A DNA stretch of 64,000 nucleotides. Source: Bacteroidia bacterium (GTDB lineage Bacteria > Bacteroidota > Bacteroidia > Flavobacteriales_D > Cryomorphaceae). Positions 58,203 to 62,465 of this stretch are shown here, piece after piece (positions within the stretch are counted from its first letter, which is position 1; the number at the start of each line of letters is the position of its first letter). The position numbers and the translations under genes were made by a program. Where the stretch lies: assembly GCA_030427905.1 (NCBI GenBank), contig JAUICL010000003.1, positions 248,001 to 312,000 of the forward strand, in the 5' to 3' direction. Below the pieces are notes generated by a model that searched no databases, was not told where the DNA came from, and saw only the letters and a program-made list of their open reading frames with translations.

Positions 58203-59699
58203 ATGAGCCGATTTAACGAAATCCATAGGATCATTTTACAGTCATCGCGCGCTGAACGCGACGTCATGAAATCTCATTTCAGAACTTATAAAGACAATGA
58301 GTTTGCTCAAATGGGAGAAAAGCTCGTTATGCTTGTTGGTGAGCATGAAAACCTAAATGAAGAACAAATTTTAAAAAAGGTATTTTCTGGCCGAAGTAAG
58401 AGTAGTTTTCTAATGTTCGTGAGAGTCGTAATTCTCGAGGCGCTGCTGTTAGATATTATCGTAGATCGGCCCGACCTACACAATAATAAATTTAGGAACA
58501 GGCTCAACAACCAAAAGAAGCTGATGCAGGGGCAAGTACTTCTTGGAAAAGAACTGTATCCAGAAGCTAGAAAACTTTTTGAAGAAGTCGTTTCAAAGGG
58601 TGAGAAATATCAGCATTTTGATCAAGTAGCTGAAGCCAAAATGCTGTTGCGCTTGATGACTTTATTGGATCCAAAGTCTCGAATAGGGCGAAAGCAAGAC
58701 AAGGGAGTAGAGAGAGCACGAGCCACCAGAAACTTACTTGAACAAATTGGTGACCACTATTTTGATAGTGCCAGCATTGCTAATAAAACGGGTAAATCAA
58801 AAACAGACGGACTTCGAAGTCTCATATCCAAAATAGATGACATTGGGGCTGGACGTCGCGATTTAACACAAGTCAAGTATTTGAAGAGCATTGCTGAGAT
58901 TGAGCTGTGCATGCACCTCGGAAAATATGAAAATGCAATAGTCCATATTGAAAACTCCATAGATCTGGTGCGCTCCGAGCCATCTCTTCAGAGCACAGAA
59001 CGCGAAATGGAACTCATCCTAAAATTGGCTGAATCGCATTCGTTTCTTTTGAATTGGCATGATGCTCTGAAGTCTTTAGACTGGGCCGATCATTTGGTGC
59101 GCAAAAATTCATTCAGTCATTACGAAGTTCTCAAGCATAAAACGCTAATTGACTTTTATAGAGGAGAGTTCGAAAGTTTGGATAAATCATTAACCAAAAA
59201 CCTGAAGTCAAAGTATATCCTGCGCCATCCATATGCCGTACTTCAATTTCGCTTCTTCTATATCTGGCGGGAATTTATTGGTGGCCAGTATATCGAAACA
59301 ATCAAACTTCTTACCGATGAACTTGAGAATACAGCGGATATCAAGCCGGAACTCAAGCTCCATATGTGCACCCTACTCTTTATGAGTATGTATGAGGCGA
59401 AAAATGATAGTGAATCTTACTCCAACTCCAAAAATCTGATTTTGAAGCGTCTTAGCGCGATAAAACCTGATCAAATGGGAGAACGAGGATGGTTTATTCT
59501 AAAGCTTCTGGAAGAGCTTCTCGATCAAGGCGCTAACCTGGATATTAAAGGTTTTGTTTCTAAAAACGTGATCAAAAAACTCAATTCAACCCGAAATGGG
59601 TGGAAATGGTTGCCGTTCAGTGATGAAATTTACCCCTTTCAATATTGGCTTGATTGGAAAATAGGCCATCGAAAAGACTCTCCTTTTACCGTTACTTAG
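58203..59699 (+). CDS. Hypothetical protein, helical-repeat (TPR-like) architecture
   Basis: A 498-residue protein I do not recognise. It lacks a signal peptide and membrane segments and is predicted almost entirely helical. Stretches such as ARKLFEEVVSKGEKYQHFDQ, LGKYENAIVHIENSIDLV and WHDALKSLDWADHLVRK have the spacing of TPR-like repeats, so it may be a protein-interaction scaffold. The N-terminus (SSRAERDVMKSHFRTYKDNE) is different and charged. It converges on the DUF3299-like gene with an 8-bp overlap of 3' ends. A CCTTTG box lies ~40 nt before the start. Confidence 0.7.
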   Translation: MSRFNEIHRIILQSSRAERDVMKSHFRTYKDNEFAQMGEKLVMLVGEHENLNEEQILKKVFSGRSKSSFLMFVRVVILEALLLDIIVDRPDLHNNKFRNRLNNQKKLMQGQVLLGKELYPEARKLFEEVVSKGEKYQHFDQVAEAKMLLRLMTLLDPKSRIGRKQDKGVERARATRNLLEQIGDHYFDSASIANKTGKSKTDGLRSLISKIDDIGAGRRDLTQVKYLKSIAEIELCMHLGKYENAIVHIENSIDLVRSEPSLQSTEREMELILKLAESHSFLLNWHDALKSLDWADHLVRKNSFSHYEVLKHKTLIDFYRGEFESLDKSLTKNLKSKYILRHPYAVLQFRFFYIWREFIGGQYIETIKLLTDELENTADIKPELKLHMCTLLFMSMYEAKNDSESYSNSKNLILKRLSAIKPDQMGERGWFILKLLEELLDQGANLDIKGFVSKNVIKKLNSTRNGWKWLPFSDEIYPFQYWLDWKIGHRKDSPFTVT

Positions 59700-60126
59700 A
59701 TTCTTCAACCTGATTTAGCACATAAATGAGCTCGTCTATGTCTGTATCGTTGAGTCGAAGAACTCCTTCAAATGTGAGTCGTTCGTCAGTCTGATATACT
59801 CGGGGATCTTCCTTGAAGTACAGTGCCATGACCGATTCGGGACCCGCGTTTCCACAAAAAAAGCATGCGCTAAACGGAAAGGCTGACAGAACATAGAGAT
59901 TCTGATCAACGTCAATAGGAATGATGTACCCCGTAACCGTGACCTTCTGACCATCGAATTTACGCTGTTTCTCATCGAACAAGGGGTAGTAAACATAGAT
60001 ATCATCTGCTTCTAAATAGATGTCCTTGAAGGTAACGTCCATTAATTCATTCCACTTCACTTCTGGCGTTTGAGCCTGTAATCCGATAACTGCAAACAAG
60101 CAGATCAATAAAAGCCTAATCTTCAT
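59692..60126 (-). CDS. DUF3299-like secreted protein
   Basis: A 144-residue exported protein. Residues 1-18 are a signal peptide (LLLICLFAVIGLQAQ). The body shows the DUF3299-like pattern: FDGQKVTVTGYIIPIDVDQN, LSAFPFSACFFCGNAGPESV and LTFEGVLRLNDTDIDELIYV. The SACFFCG cysteine pair is a possible metal or redox site. It overlaps the permease gene by 11 bp and is the third gene of an ATPase-permease-DUF3299 operon. Comparable sets occur in zinc-responsive loci of other bacteria as I recall, but the substrate here is unknown. Confidence 0.8.
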   Translation of the reverse strand: MKIRLLLICLFAVIGLQAQTPEVKWNELMDVTFKDIYLEADDIYVYYPLFDEKQRKFDGQKVTVTGYIIPIDVDQNLYVLSAFPFSACFFCGNAGPESVMALYFKEDPRVYQTDERLTFEGVLRLNDTDIDELIYVLNQVEESK

Positions 60127-61294
60127 ATTCTTTCAACGTTTTAAATACATCTCTACGCGATGCGCTAAGTGCTGGAAAAAGCGCAGCCAAAACACAGATG
60201 AGTACGGTGCCCAATATCAAAGCCGTTTCAAAGGCTGTAAAATCTAATGGGTTTAGTTCAAATCCGTATTTCATCATCATTTGCTTCTTTAGCAATGCTT
60301 GAGCGACATGTCCGAAAATAATGCCAAAAACCGCTCCAAATAGTCCCAAAAGTGCGGCTTCAGTTAATATCATCACCAGCAGTTTCGATCGCCCCGCACC
60401 CATAGCCCTGATTAAGGCTAACTCGTAAGCGCGGTCGCTCATGGCGTTGATCATCGATACGAGAACACTGATCCCCCCCAATGCCAACAACAAAATAGTC
60501 ACGATTTCAAAGACTTGTCTTCCCACGCTAAACAATCCCATCAATCTATTTACTTCGATCGCTGGCAAAGCTGCTTGCATGGACGTTTGCTCGTTGACTA
60601 TTCTAGGTAGAGAAAGCATGCCCATCTTGTTCTTAAACCGTACCAACATAGCTGTGATCTCTTCTTCCGAACCCGGCTCACTGTGATGCAAGTCCCTGAT
60701 GCTTTGGTCTGAAACCAGAATGACCCTATCGAGGATGGTAGAGCTGTGCTCCATGATTCCAACCACCTTGAAGTCAACATCATCGTGAACTTCAGCATCC
60801 ATATCGCTACCGTGAGCACTATGAAAGGTAGAACCTATACTCAATCCAGTCTCAGCAGCCACTTGTGCTCCCACCACCGCTTCAAAAGGTTCACTCCAAA
60901 CTCGCCCACTCTCAAGACCGACGTCATACCAATCCATATATTCGGGCGAGGTACCGATGATTTTACGGCCCTTGTAGCTATCTCCGAAAGAGAGTTGTAC
61001 CGTTCGGTCTACCAATCTGTTTTTGGCCAAGTTTTCGGCTTCGGCTTTGGAAATATTTCCGGTAGGATTGTCTATCTGATAGATCGCCGATAGTATCAGC
61101 TGCAAAGGACTTCCCTTAGCTCCCACTACCATATCGGTTCCTTTGATATTCTTTTTGAACCCCTGATCTACACTCTCATTGAGCGCCGAAAGCAAGACAG
61201 CCAATGATACACCAGCCGCTAGCATAATCAAGGTGAGTACGGATCTAAGTCCCGATGCCTTCAAGTTCTTGTATCCAATCGATATCACGTTCAT
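60116..61294 (-). CDS. ABC transporter permease, FtsX/MacB type
   Basis: A 392-residue inner-membrane permease. One N-terminal membrane helix (SVLTLIMLAAGVSLAVLLSA) is followed by a ~220-residue periplasmic domain and three C-terminal helices (VTILLLALGGISVLVSMINA; LLGLFGAVFGIIFGHVAQA; ALILGTVLICVLAALFPA). This is the FtsX/MacB/LolC layout, in which ATP hydrolysis drives movement of the periplasmic domain and not classic transmembrane transport. It overlaps the ATPase gene by 4 bp and the DUF3299-like gene by 11 bp. Substrates of such systems are lipoproteins, peptides or metals. Confidence 0.92.
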   Translation of the reverse strand: MNVISIGYKNLKASGLRSVLTLIMLAAGVSLAVLLSALNESVDQGFKKNIKGTDMVVGAKGSPLQLILSAIYQIDNPTGNISKAEAENLAKNRLVDRTVQLSFGDSYKGRKIIGTSPEYMDWYDVGLESGRVWSEPFEAVVGAQVAAETGLSIGSTFHSAHGSDMDAEVHDDVDFKVVGIMEHSSTILDRVILVSDQSIRDLHHSEPGSEEEITAMLVRFKNKMGMLSLPRIVNEQTSMQAALPAIEVNRLMGLFSVGRQVFEIVTILLLALGGISVLVSMINAMSDRAYELALIRAMGAGRSKLLVMILTEAALLGLFGAVFGIIFGHVAQALLKKQMMMKYGFELNPLDFTAFETALILGTVLICVLAALFPALSASRRDVFKTLKEYED

Positions 61295-61950
61295 AGGGAA
61301 ACAATGTTTTGAAAGTGAGATCTTATGCGCTGATCATGCGAAACCAGAATCAAAGTAGCTCCATGGGCATTGGCTTCCTTCACCAACAAGTTGTATACCT
61401 TTTCGGCATTTTGGTCATCGAGGCTGGATGTGGGCTCATCGGCAAGTAGAATCTTAGGCTGTGAGGCTAAGGCACGAGCTACCGAAAGTCTCTGGCGCTC
61501 TCCCCCACTCAGATCTCTCGGCTGCTTCGATTTCATTTGAAGGAGTCCCAAAGATTTCAATAAAGCTTCAGCCGATTTCGAATCTTTCTGCTTTCCCGCG
61601 AAATACTGCCCTGCGATCACATTCTCCAGAACTGAAAGCGATGAAATAAAACGCGCCTTTTGGAAAACGATTCCAACGTTTTCACCGCGAAACTGGTCCA
61701 TTTCCTTTCTGGAAAAATTTTGAATCTCTTTTCCCAACACCTTGATCTGCCCAGATTGAACTTTGAGCATACCAGCAATCAAGTATAGCAGAGTAGATTT
61801 TCCCGAGCCCGAGAGCCCTGAGATCATCATATGCTCTCCTTGAAAACATTGAAAATCGGGAAATTGAATAGGGGACTGTCCATCAAACTGATGGGACAAA
61901 TTCACCACGTCAACAAGGGGTTTGGGATCGAGTTCTCCTTTTTTCTCCAT
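61291..61950 (-). CDS. ABC transporter ATP-binding protein (LolD/MacB type)
   Basis: A 219-residue cytoplasmic ATPase that powers the adjacent permease. Walker A is GLSGSGKST (45-53), the Q-loop FQKA, the signature LSGGERQRLSVARAL, Walker B ILLADEPTSSLD and the switch VSHDQR. The size and the family fit partners of FtsX-type permeases. It is the first gene of the three-gene operon, and its stop overlaps the next start (ATGA type). A 7-bp inverted repeat lies 79-107 bp upstream of its start. Confidence 0.95.
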   Translation of the reverse strand: MEKKGELDPKPLVDVVNLSHQFDGQSPIQFPDFQCFQGEHMMISGLSGSGKSTLLYLIAGMLKVQSGQIKVLGKEIQNFSRKEMDQFRGENVGIVFQKARFISSLSVLENVIAGQYFAGKQKDSKSAEALLKSLGLLQMKSKQPRDLSGGERQRLSVARALASQPKILLADEPTSSLDDQNAEKVYNLLVKEANAHGATLILVSHDQRIRSHFQNIVSL

Positions 61951-62028
61951 GATTTATGACCCCAAAAATAGCGTATTGAATCGTTCTTCTGAAATGAGTT
62001 TACGTTAGGAAAAGATTGGACGAGAGTA

Positions 62029-62057
62029 GGTGATGATATTATAACGGTGCCATCACC
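62029..62057. promoter_or_regulatory. Inverted repeat upstream of the ABC operon, possible operator
   Basis: GGTGATG (62029-62035) and CATCACC (62051-62057) form a perfect 7-bp inverted repeat with a 15-nt spacer. Read on the minus strand the spacer contains GTTATAATAT, which resembles the core of the proteobacterial Zur box. No T-run follows, so it is not a terminator. Binding by a metal regulator is inference. It could also serve the divergent gene at 62133. Confidence 0.4.
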
Positions 62058-62132
62058 TTTTCTTAACCTTAACCATAGCCTTTATTGAGCTTATAGCTAG
62101 ATGTTTGCGGCAAACATTAAAGAAACTAAATC

Positions 62133-62465
62133 ATGAAAAAGAACATCATTCTGAGCATCTTATTTTGCTTGACAATCTTCACTGGGGCGATAGCATCAAA
62201 CGGTGGAAGTGAACCTTTAACCAAGGTAATTCGAAAAAGCGTAAACTACCCTTCATTTGCCAAAGAAGACCAATTGCACGGTTTGGTTTTGGTAGAGTTT
62301 GAAGTGGATGAAAATGGAGTTATTTCAGTAAACCGTATCAATTCGTCGGACGAGAGTCTTGGATCTCATGTGAAGCAGGTCTTGGAGGGAATCGAATTGA
62401 ATGACATGAACGCTGTTGGGACGCACTTTGCAAAATTTCACTTCAAGTATGTAGCACTGAAATAA
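62133..62465 (+). CDS. Small secreted TonB C-terminal-like protein
   Basis: A 110-residue exported protein. Residues 1-21 are a signal peptide (ILSILFCLTIFTGAIAS). The mature part resembles a TonB C-terminal domain: VNYPSFAKEDQLHGLVLVEF, VDENGVISVNRINSSDESLG and a final beta strand. In Bacteroidota such stand-alone periplasmic TonB-C-like proteins are frequent and their role is unknown; there is no N-terminal anchor and no proline-rich linker, so it cannot act as an ordinary TonB. It is divergent from the ABC operon and ends at a terminator. Confidence 0.8.
   Translation: MKKNIILSILFCLTIFTGAIASNGGSEPLTKVIRKSVNYPSFAKEDQLHGLVLVEFEVDENGVISVNRINSSDESLGSHVKQVLEGIELNDMNAVGTHFAKFHFKYVALK

Follow-up and report, generated by a model that had tools for sequence, protein, structure and literature searches.

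A Bacteroidota operon of the Zrg-type ABC family, without ZrgA and without a Zur box, and its probable role in transition-metal handling

The window analysed here is a 64-kb stretch (64,000 nucleotides) from a Bacteroidia bacterium of the family Cryomorphaceae (assembly GCA_030427905.1, contig JAUICL010000003.1, positions 248,001 to 312,000). Near its right end lies a compact operon for an ATP-binding cassette (ABC) transporter and a secreted partner, composed of three overlapping minus-strand open reading frames (ORFs) for an ATPase, a permease and a DUF3299-like protein with an oligonucleotide/oligosaccharide-binding (OB) fold:

61291..61950, minus strand: ABC ATPase resembling ZrgC and PA4064, first gene of the operon (219 aa; Pfam ABC_tran, E 4.5e-34)
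60116..61294, minus strand: permease of the MacB/FtsX (type VII) fold, resembling ZrgB and PA4065 (392 aa; assigned by Pfam FtsX and MacB_PCD, tree and model)
59692..60126, minus strand: secreted OB-fold DUF3299 protein resembling ZrgE and PA4066, with the motif C88-F-F-C91 (144 aa; assigned by profile, model, Foldseek and VIA)

The ATPase and permease genes overlap by 4 bp and the permease and DUF3299-like genes by 11 bp, so that the ORF calls agree with the original prediction of an ATPase, a permease and a secreted CFFC protein in one operon. The ATPase gene also comes first at all seven orthologous loci in the family (L047-L053). The permease scores E 6.7e-17 on Pfam FtsX and E 4.7e-12 on MacB_PCD, and the DUF3299-like protein possesses a signal-like N-terminus and the core SACFFCGNAGPES.

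Taken alone, the window protein matches Pfam DUF3299 (PF11736) at E 0.012 with 16.2 bits, under the cut-off of 22; hence, the label needed relatives for its confirmation. A PF11736 search of the genome gave no match because the window protein lies beyond the reach of the model, a single-sequence search of the PDB with this protein returned only noise, and a plasmid tblastn returned no match. Protein searches located the DUF3299-like protein in each of the eight family genomes and, across the phylum, in 56 of the 395 genomes sampled. Among 71 aligned homologues, 32 match PF11736 at E 0.01, and the 71-homologue profile matches PA4066 (PDB 4HSP) at E 2.8e-9, the next match being an antibody at 0.008. 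The predicted structure (predicted local distance difference test, pLDDT, 91.4) finds 4HSP at rank 1 in Foldseek (E 9e-4). VIA likewise places 4HSP best (Z 9.4, root-mean-square deviation 3.5, 112 aligned), with other OB folds so close behind that the fold alone is not decisive. Cys88 is invariant in all 71 homologues, and Cys91 is present in 58 of them, being Ser, Val or His in the rest. Profile and fold together bear out the DUF3299-like partner with a CFFC core that had been proposed. A second DUF3299 copy with 40% identity is situated at G000:C3:408442-408828 (L057 8389-8841), where it adjoins a DUF4625-like lipoprotein gene; in three relatives, this pair is found beside a TonB receptor.

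The AlphaFold2 model of the permease (pLDDT 88.6) adopts the MacB/LolCDE fold, with MacB (5gko) as the best Foldseek match. The nearest solved structures are those of MacB and LolCDE, and the ATPase scores best on the LolD and DevA models, as would be expected of a pump of the Lol or MacB kind that moves lipoproteins, peptides or drugs and has nothing to do with metals. Both ATPase scores nevertheless stay under their cut-offs (171 bits against 308 for LolD), and the lolCE model yields 47 bits against a cut-off of 362, which places the operon outside LolCDE. It also falls outside MacAB-TolC, since the ATPase and the permease are separate ORFs and the operon contains no adaptor gene; a MacA-like gene is located outside it, 6-7 kb past the ATPase start. 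A quick maximum-likelihood tree built from 51 permeases groups the window protein with 41 other Bacteroidota proteins and four ZrgB-like proteins from Phaeobacter, Catenovulum, Aeromonas and Deinococcus (Shimodaira–Hasegawa-like approximate likelihood ratio test, SH-aLRT, 99), whereas the five other FtsX permeases of this genome fall apart from the ZrgB clade. The program gave a long-branch warning, and since long branches meet, the exact position of the three proteobacterial rows within the clade is uncertain. Among the 13 FtsX matches in the genome, one is the window gene, and seven were left out of the tree as double-length rows or ORFs that were not extracted; the Bacteroidota rows L083 and L117 were also omitted. 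This grouping, the DUF3299 partner, and relatives that stand beside CobW or MerC genes and carry His-rich loops make a pump without any metal role unlikely. An exporter of heme of the HrtBA kind is extremely improbable: the permease model does match HrtBA in Foldseek, but HrtBA ranks under MacB and LolCDE, no heme genes were noticed beside the operon, and HrtBA is not known to have a DUF3299 partner.

Two related systems have been described. The zrgABCDE operon of Vibrio comprises the permease zrgB, the ATPase zrgC and the DUF3299 gene zrgE, is repressed by Zur and induced by zinc starvation (PMC9817125), and supports growth under zinc limitation (PMC9820375, PMC9817125). The permease tree, the DUF3299 profile and the gene order identify it as a true homologue, as had been surmised for a zinc-responsive Vibrio locus. 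In Pseudomonas aeruginosa, PA4064-PA4065 are described as a MacB-type exporter of pyochelin-cobalt, and PA4065 mutants accumulate intracellular cobalt and pyochelin (PMC11481552). The window operon shares with this family a permease of the ZrgB clade, with the ATPase and the DUF3299 protein adjacent in one operon; it contains no ZrgA, and its sequence gives no sign of Zur control. Unexpectedly, the search for ZrgA (PF10986) found no match in any of 149 genomes of the class, this one included. The positive control, a Phaeobacter plasmid with the gene row Fur, ZrgA, ATPase, permease and DUF3299, was matched at 7.9e-36. Because ZrgA was not found, the window operon is not a complete ZrgABCDE system.

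The operon is probably a Bacteroidota branch of the Zrg-type ABC family (ZrgB-ZrgC-ZrgE; PA4065-PA4064-PA4066) that lacks ZrgA, is independent of Zur in this genome, and takes part in transition-metal handling. A metal role is favoured because of the phylogeny and the neighbourhoods of the relatives. Two copies of the ATPase and two of the permease would form a complex of the MacB fold which, judging from that fold, would have no substrate channel and would couple cytoplasmic ATP use to movements of the periplasmic domain. In the periplasmic domain, H161, H203, D105 and D189 may serve as the binding site of either a metal chelate or a divalent metal, zinc or cobalt. The secreted OB-fold DUF3299 protein could be the dedicated partner of this domain, docking to it and either delivering the cargo or taking it over. 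The published directions conflict, with zinc uptake in Vibrio and pyochelin-cobalt export in Pseudomonas, and the present data are compatible with either.

All 48 aligned permeases of the family share the residues D105, H161, G162, D189 and H203 (window numbering). Behind H203, at least five His residues follow in 23 of the 36 Bacteroidota permeases outside the window's family, with a median of 11 and a maximum of 36, and the loop consists of 20% His compared with 2% elsewhere in the protein. In the model, this position falls in the periplasmic domain, between the first and second long helices. None of the four non-Bacteroidota permeases has a His-rich loop (maximum 1 His).

A palindrome, TGCAACANTGTTGCA, was first noticed before a CobW gene and before an operon for a lipoprotein, a TonB receptor and Fur, and was then searched for throughout the genome. 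Two sites match without mismatch, one with one mismatch and nine with two, whereas the reversed control has a single site at up to two mismatches. At its three best sites, the palindrome stands ahead of MerC-FolE, of a ZigA-like CobW GTPase, and of the lipoprotein-TonB receptor-Fur operon. Genes of the MerC-FolE, CobW and TonB-receptor types are typical of zinc starvation, and against the ZigA model for zinc metallochaperones the box-linked CobW protein scores 559 bits, the cut-off being 600. Co-regulation by Zur of COG0523 proteins and an alternative FolE has been described (PMC2770081). The palindrome is thus likely the Zur box of this genome, to which Zur would bind, and it offers a testable zinc-starvation box for Bacteroidota. 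The ZnuA-family operon of the genome (L092) shows no box within two mismatches in the fetched stretch. The genome encodes five Fur-family regulators in total; two more of these are situated at G000 C8:160766 and C8:183794 (L004, L003), at least one of them beside heavy-metal-efflux-like genes.

The neighbourhoods of DUF3299 genes were counted over 85 rows, corresponding to 84 distinct copies (one gene was fetched twice) from 62 of the 63 genomes with a match; G249, whose copy was not called as a gene, is omitted, and L077 is replaced by the larger L172 from the same place. In 53 rows (52 distinct), from 49 genomes, DUF3299 has a permease of the family no more than three genes away; one of these cases (L122, 9921) is a separate gene encoded on the opposite strand. 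Within the same distance, CobW occurs in 13 genomes, MerC in 6 and Fur in 1 (four tandem copies in one genome), and any of the three in 16 of 62. CobW accounts for 13 of 487 genes at distances 1-3 compared with 1 of 428 at distances 5-8; taken together, CobW, MerC and Fur make up 23 of 487 genes at the shorter and 4 of 428 at the longer distances, with tandem copies inflating the contribution of Fur and MerC. In other Bacteroidota, the operon adjoins CobW, MerC, TonB receptors and Fur. A Zur-like box with at most two mismatches precedes eight DUF3299 copies, compared with 0, 0, 1 and 0 for four control palindromes. In G189 (L172), a single strand carries a Fur gene, a box with two mismatches, and then MerC, FolE, a TonB receptor, lipoproteins, two CobW genes, the ATPase, the permease and DUF3299; FolE was assigned here by its likeness to the FolE of the present genome. 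One lipoprotein of this Zur-like super-locus (L172 6062-6868) has a His/Asp-rich N-terminal stretch. Another locus (L114 7996-10257) unites four DUF3299 genes, a Fur-family gene, the ATPase and the permease in one operon.

Several observations weigh against metal handling by the window operon itself. In none of the eight genomes of the window's family does CobW, MerC, Fur or a Zur box stand beside the operon, and none of the eight permeases has a His-rich loop, the loop being short with 0-1 His after H203; the metal evidence therefore comes from more distant relatives. Five of the eight boxed DUF3299 copies are linked to CobW without ABC genes, while the ABC-linked copies of the same five genomes are boxless. 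Only 3 of the 52 distinct ABC-linked copies (in G296, G189 and G119) have a box at up to two mismatches. Moreover, PA4066 reportedly shows no evident zinc binding (PMC11481552). Comparing the neighbourhoods, as the original prediction had proposed for a check, thus reveals metal genes in 16 of the 62 genomes, whereas the window's own family has none.

If the direction of transport is fixed outward, probable metal handling becomes export, with a metal chelate or surplus cobalt as the cargo, as described for PA4064-PA4065 with pyochelin. The MacB-type fold is common to both systems, and the accumulation of cobalt and pyochelin in PA4065 mutants points the same way. A FecCD-type importer and a binding protein lie a few genes away in this genome and in three family members, with a MacA-like adaptor in three of the four, and in one distant genome a FecCD gene and binding proteins are also found close to the ABC-DUF3299-CobW genes. 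This association is a weak hint, because among the fetched loci it is limited to the window's family, where it may equal plain synteny, and one other ABC-linked genome. Export in this specific form is possible but rather doubtful. Just past the right end of the window (L086 11505-16974), the FecCD-type ABC importer, the binding protein, the MacA-like adaptor and a MacB-type permease are all found within about 8 kb, an arrangement partly conserved in G001, G003 and G004.

Upstream of the ATPase gene, two elements were located in the 182-bp intergenic stretch that separates it from a divergent gene at 62133:

62029..62057, no strand assigned: inverted repeat GGTGATG-N15-CATCACC with perfect 7-bp stems; a Zur box by no test made
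61963..61970, minus strand: TATTTTTG, a probable promoter element of the Bacteroidota type (TAnnTTTG), 20 nt ahead of the ATPase start

TAnnTTTG, the Bacteroidota promoter consensus, is also present upstream of the operon in five of seven relatives, no further than 45 nt from the start. The inverted repeat is situated 79-107 nt upstream of the ATPase start, and its spacer reads GCACCGTTATAATAT on the minus strand, so that GTTATAATAT lies within it. Perfect 7-bp inverted repeats with spacers of up to 20 are present in 23.9% of 2000 dinucleotide shuffles of the 182-bp stretch, and in only 1.45% when at least four of the seven stem bases must be G or C.

The original prediction of this repeat, enclosing GTTATAATAT close to the proteobacterial Zur core, holds for the repeat and for the enclosure: GTTATAATAT is off at 2 of 12 scored positions from that core. 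A zinc importer controlled by Zur, with 62029-62057 as its operator, would fit this resemblance as well as the Zur repression and zinc-starvation induction of the Vibrio zrg operon. However, four sites in the window match the core equally well, and the centre of the repeat (62043.0) does not coincide with that of TTATAA (62041.5). The predicted recurrence of the repeat at other zinc genes also fails: its only exact match in the 3.8-Mb genome is its own site, and with up to two mismatches it has 15 sites compared with 9 for the reversed control pattern. On reading, the upstream stretches of the seven orthologous operons contain nothing resembling it; conservation was judged across these seven same-family relatives rather than at the genus level, as a scan of genome contigs for close relatives turned up no member of the genus, only one distant locus from a betaproteobacterium. 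Non-conservation, absence of the repeat from zinc genes, near-control counts and the other palindrome at zinc-starvation genes rule it out as a Zur box. The window operon also has no box of the TGCAACANTGTTGCA type at up to 4 of 14 mismatches, the best match having 5 of 14. With the repeat absent at zinc genes, a zinc response of the window operon is unsupported by sequence, and a Zur-controlled importer is very improbable. The metal function that had been suggested is thus favoured by phylogeny and by the relatives' neighbourhoods, but not its zinc response: the family assignment is real and the regulatory claim is wrong. In the same intergenic stretch, a perfect 8-bp palindrome with a one-base spacer (ATGTTTGC-G-GCAAACAT, 62101-62117) stands just before the TonB_C-like gene at 62133; 8-bp repeats with spacers of up to 5 occur in 2% of the shuffles, and part of this palindrome may simply be promoter.

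The relatives suggest that the Bacteroidota branch built a metal-binding part into the transporter itself. The Bacteroidota machine might do without ZrgA because the long His/Asp/Glu-rich loop after H203 replaces the His-rich subunit. The window's family would then have lost, or never had, both the loop and the zinc control, leaving a constitutive, stripped-down metal mechanotransporter with DUF3299 as its sole soluble partner. This transfer of the ZrgA function into the permease is the boldest reading, to be taken as a tentative proposal that could well prove mistaken, and the comparison behind it covers ZrgA in one class (149 genomes) and four non-Bacteroidota permeases. ZrgA proteins themselves carry His-rich loops (PMC8561739, PMC9820375); the loop of V. 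cholerae ZrgA is not essential (PMC9820375), an argument against such loops being vital. No report of the ZrgA-less variant with a His-rich ZrgB loop, or of a Bacteroidota Zur box, was found in titles and the starts of abstracts, which is no proof of absence from print. The part of a MacB-fold ABC machine in zinc nutrition is contested, between import in Vibrio and cobalt-chelate export in Pseudomonas. Across Bacteroidota, the permease, ATPase and DUF3299 protein are kept in the absence of ZrgA, and many of the permeases have a His-rich loop, which the window's family lacks; these natural variants separate the parts, and bear on which of them are essential, where the metal is bound, and what the orphan DUF3299 protein does.

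Compared with Vibrio ZrgABCDE, the window operon is of the same kind, with homologous permease, ATPase and DUF3299 partner, but it has no ZrgA (DUF2796), no counterpart of ZrgD and no Zur box. The classical DUF3299 core is of the C-x-H type, whereas that of the window protein is CFFC. In the case of P. aeruginosa PA4063-PA4066, PA4063 has no equivalent in the window operon and the PA4066 site lacks the second Cys, while the MacB-fold permease/ATPase pair is shared and PA4066 (4HSP) is likewise a DUF3299 partner. Unlike MacB and LolCDE, both type VII ABC systems, the window operon encodes its ATPase and permease in separate genes, has a DUF3299 partner in place of a MacA or TolC gene, and its permease belongs to a clade apart from the other FtsX permeases of the genome; with these systems it shares the fold and probably the mechanics of the ATPase-permease core.

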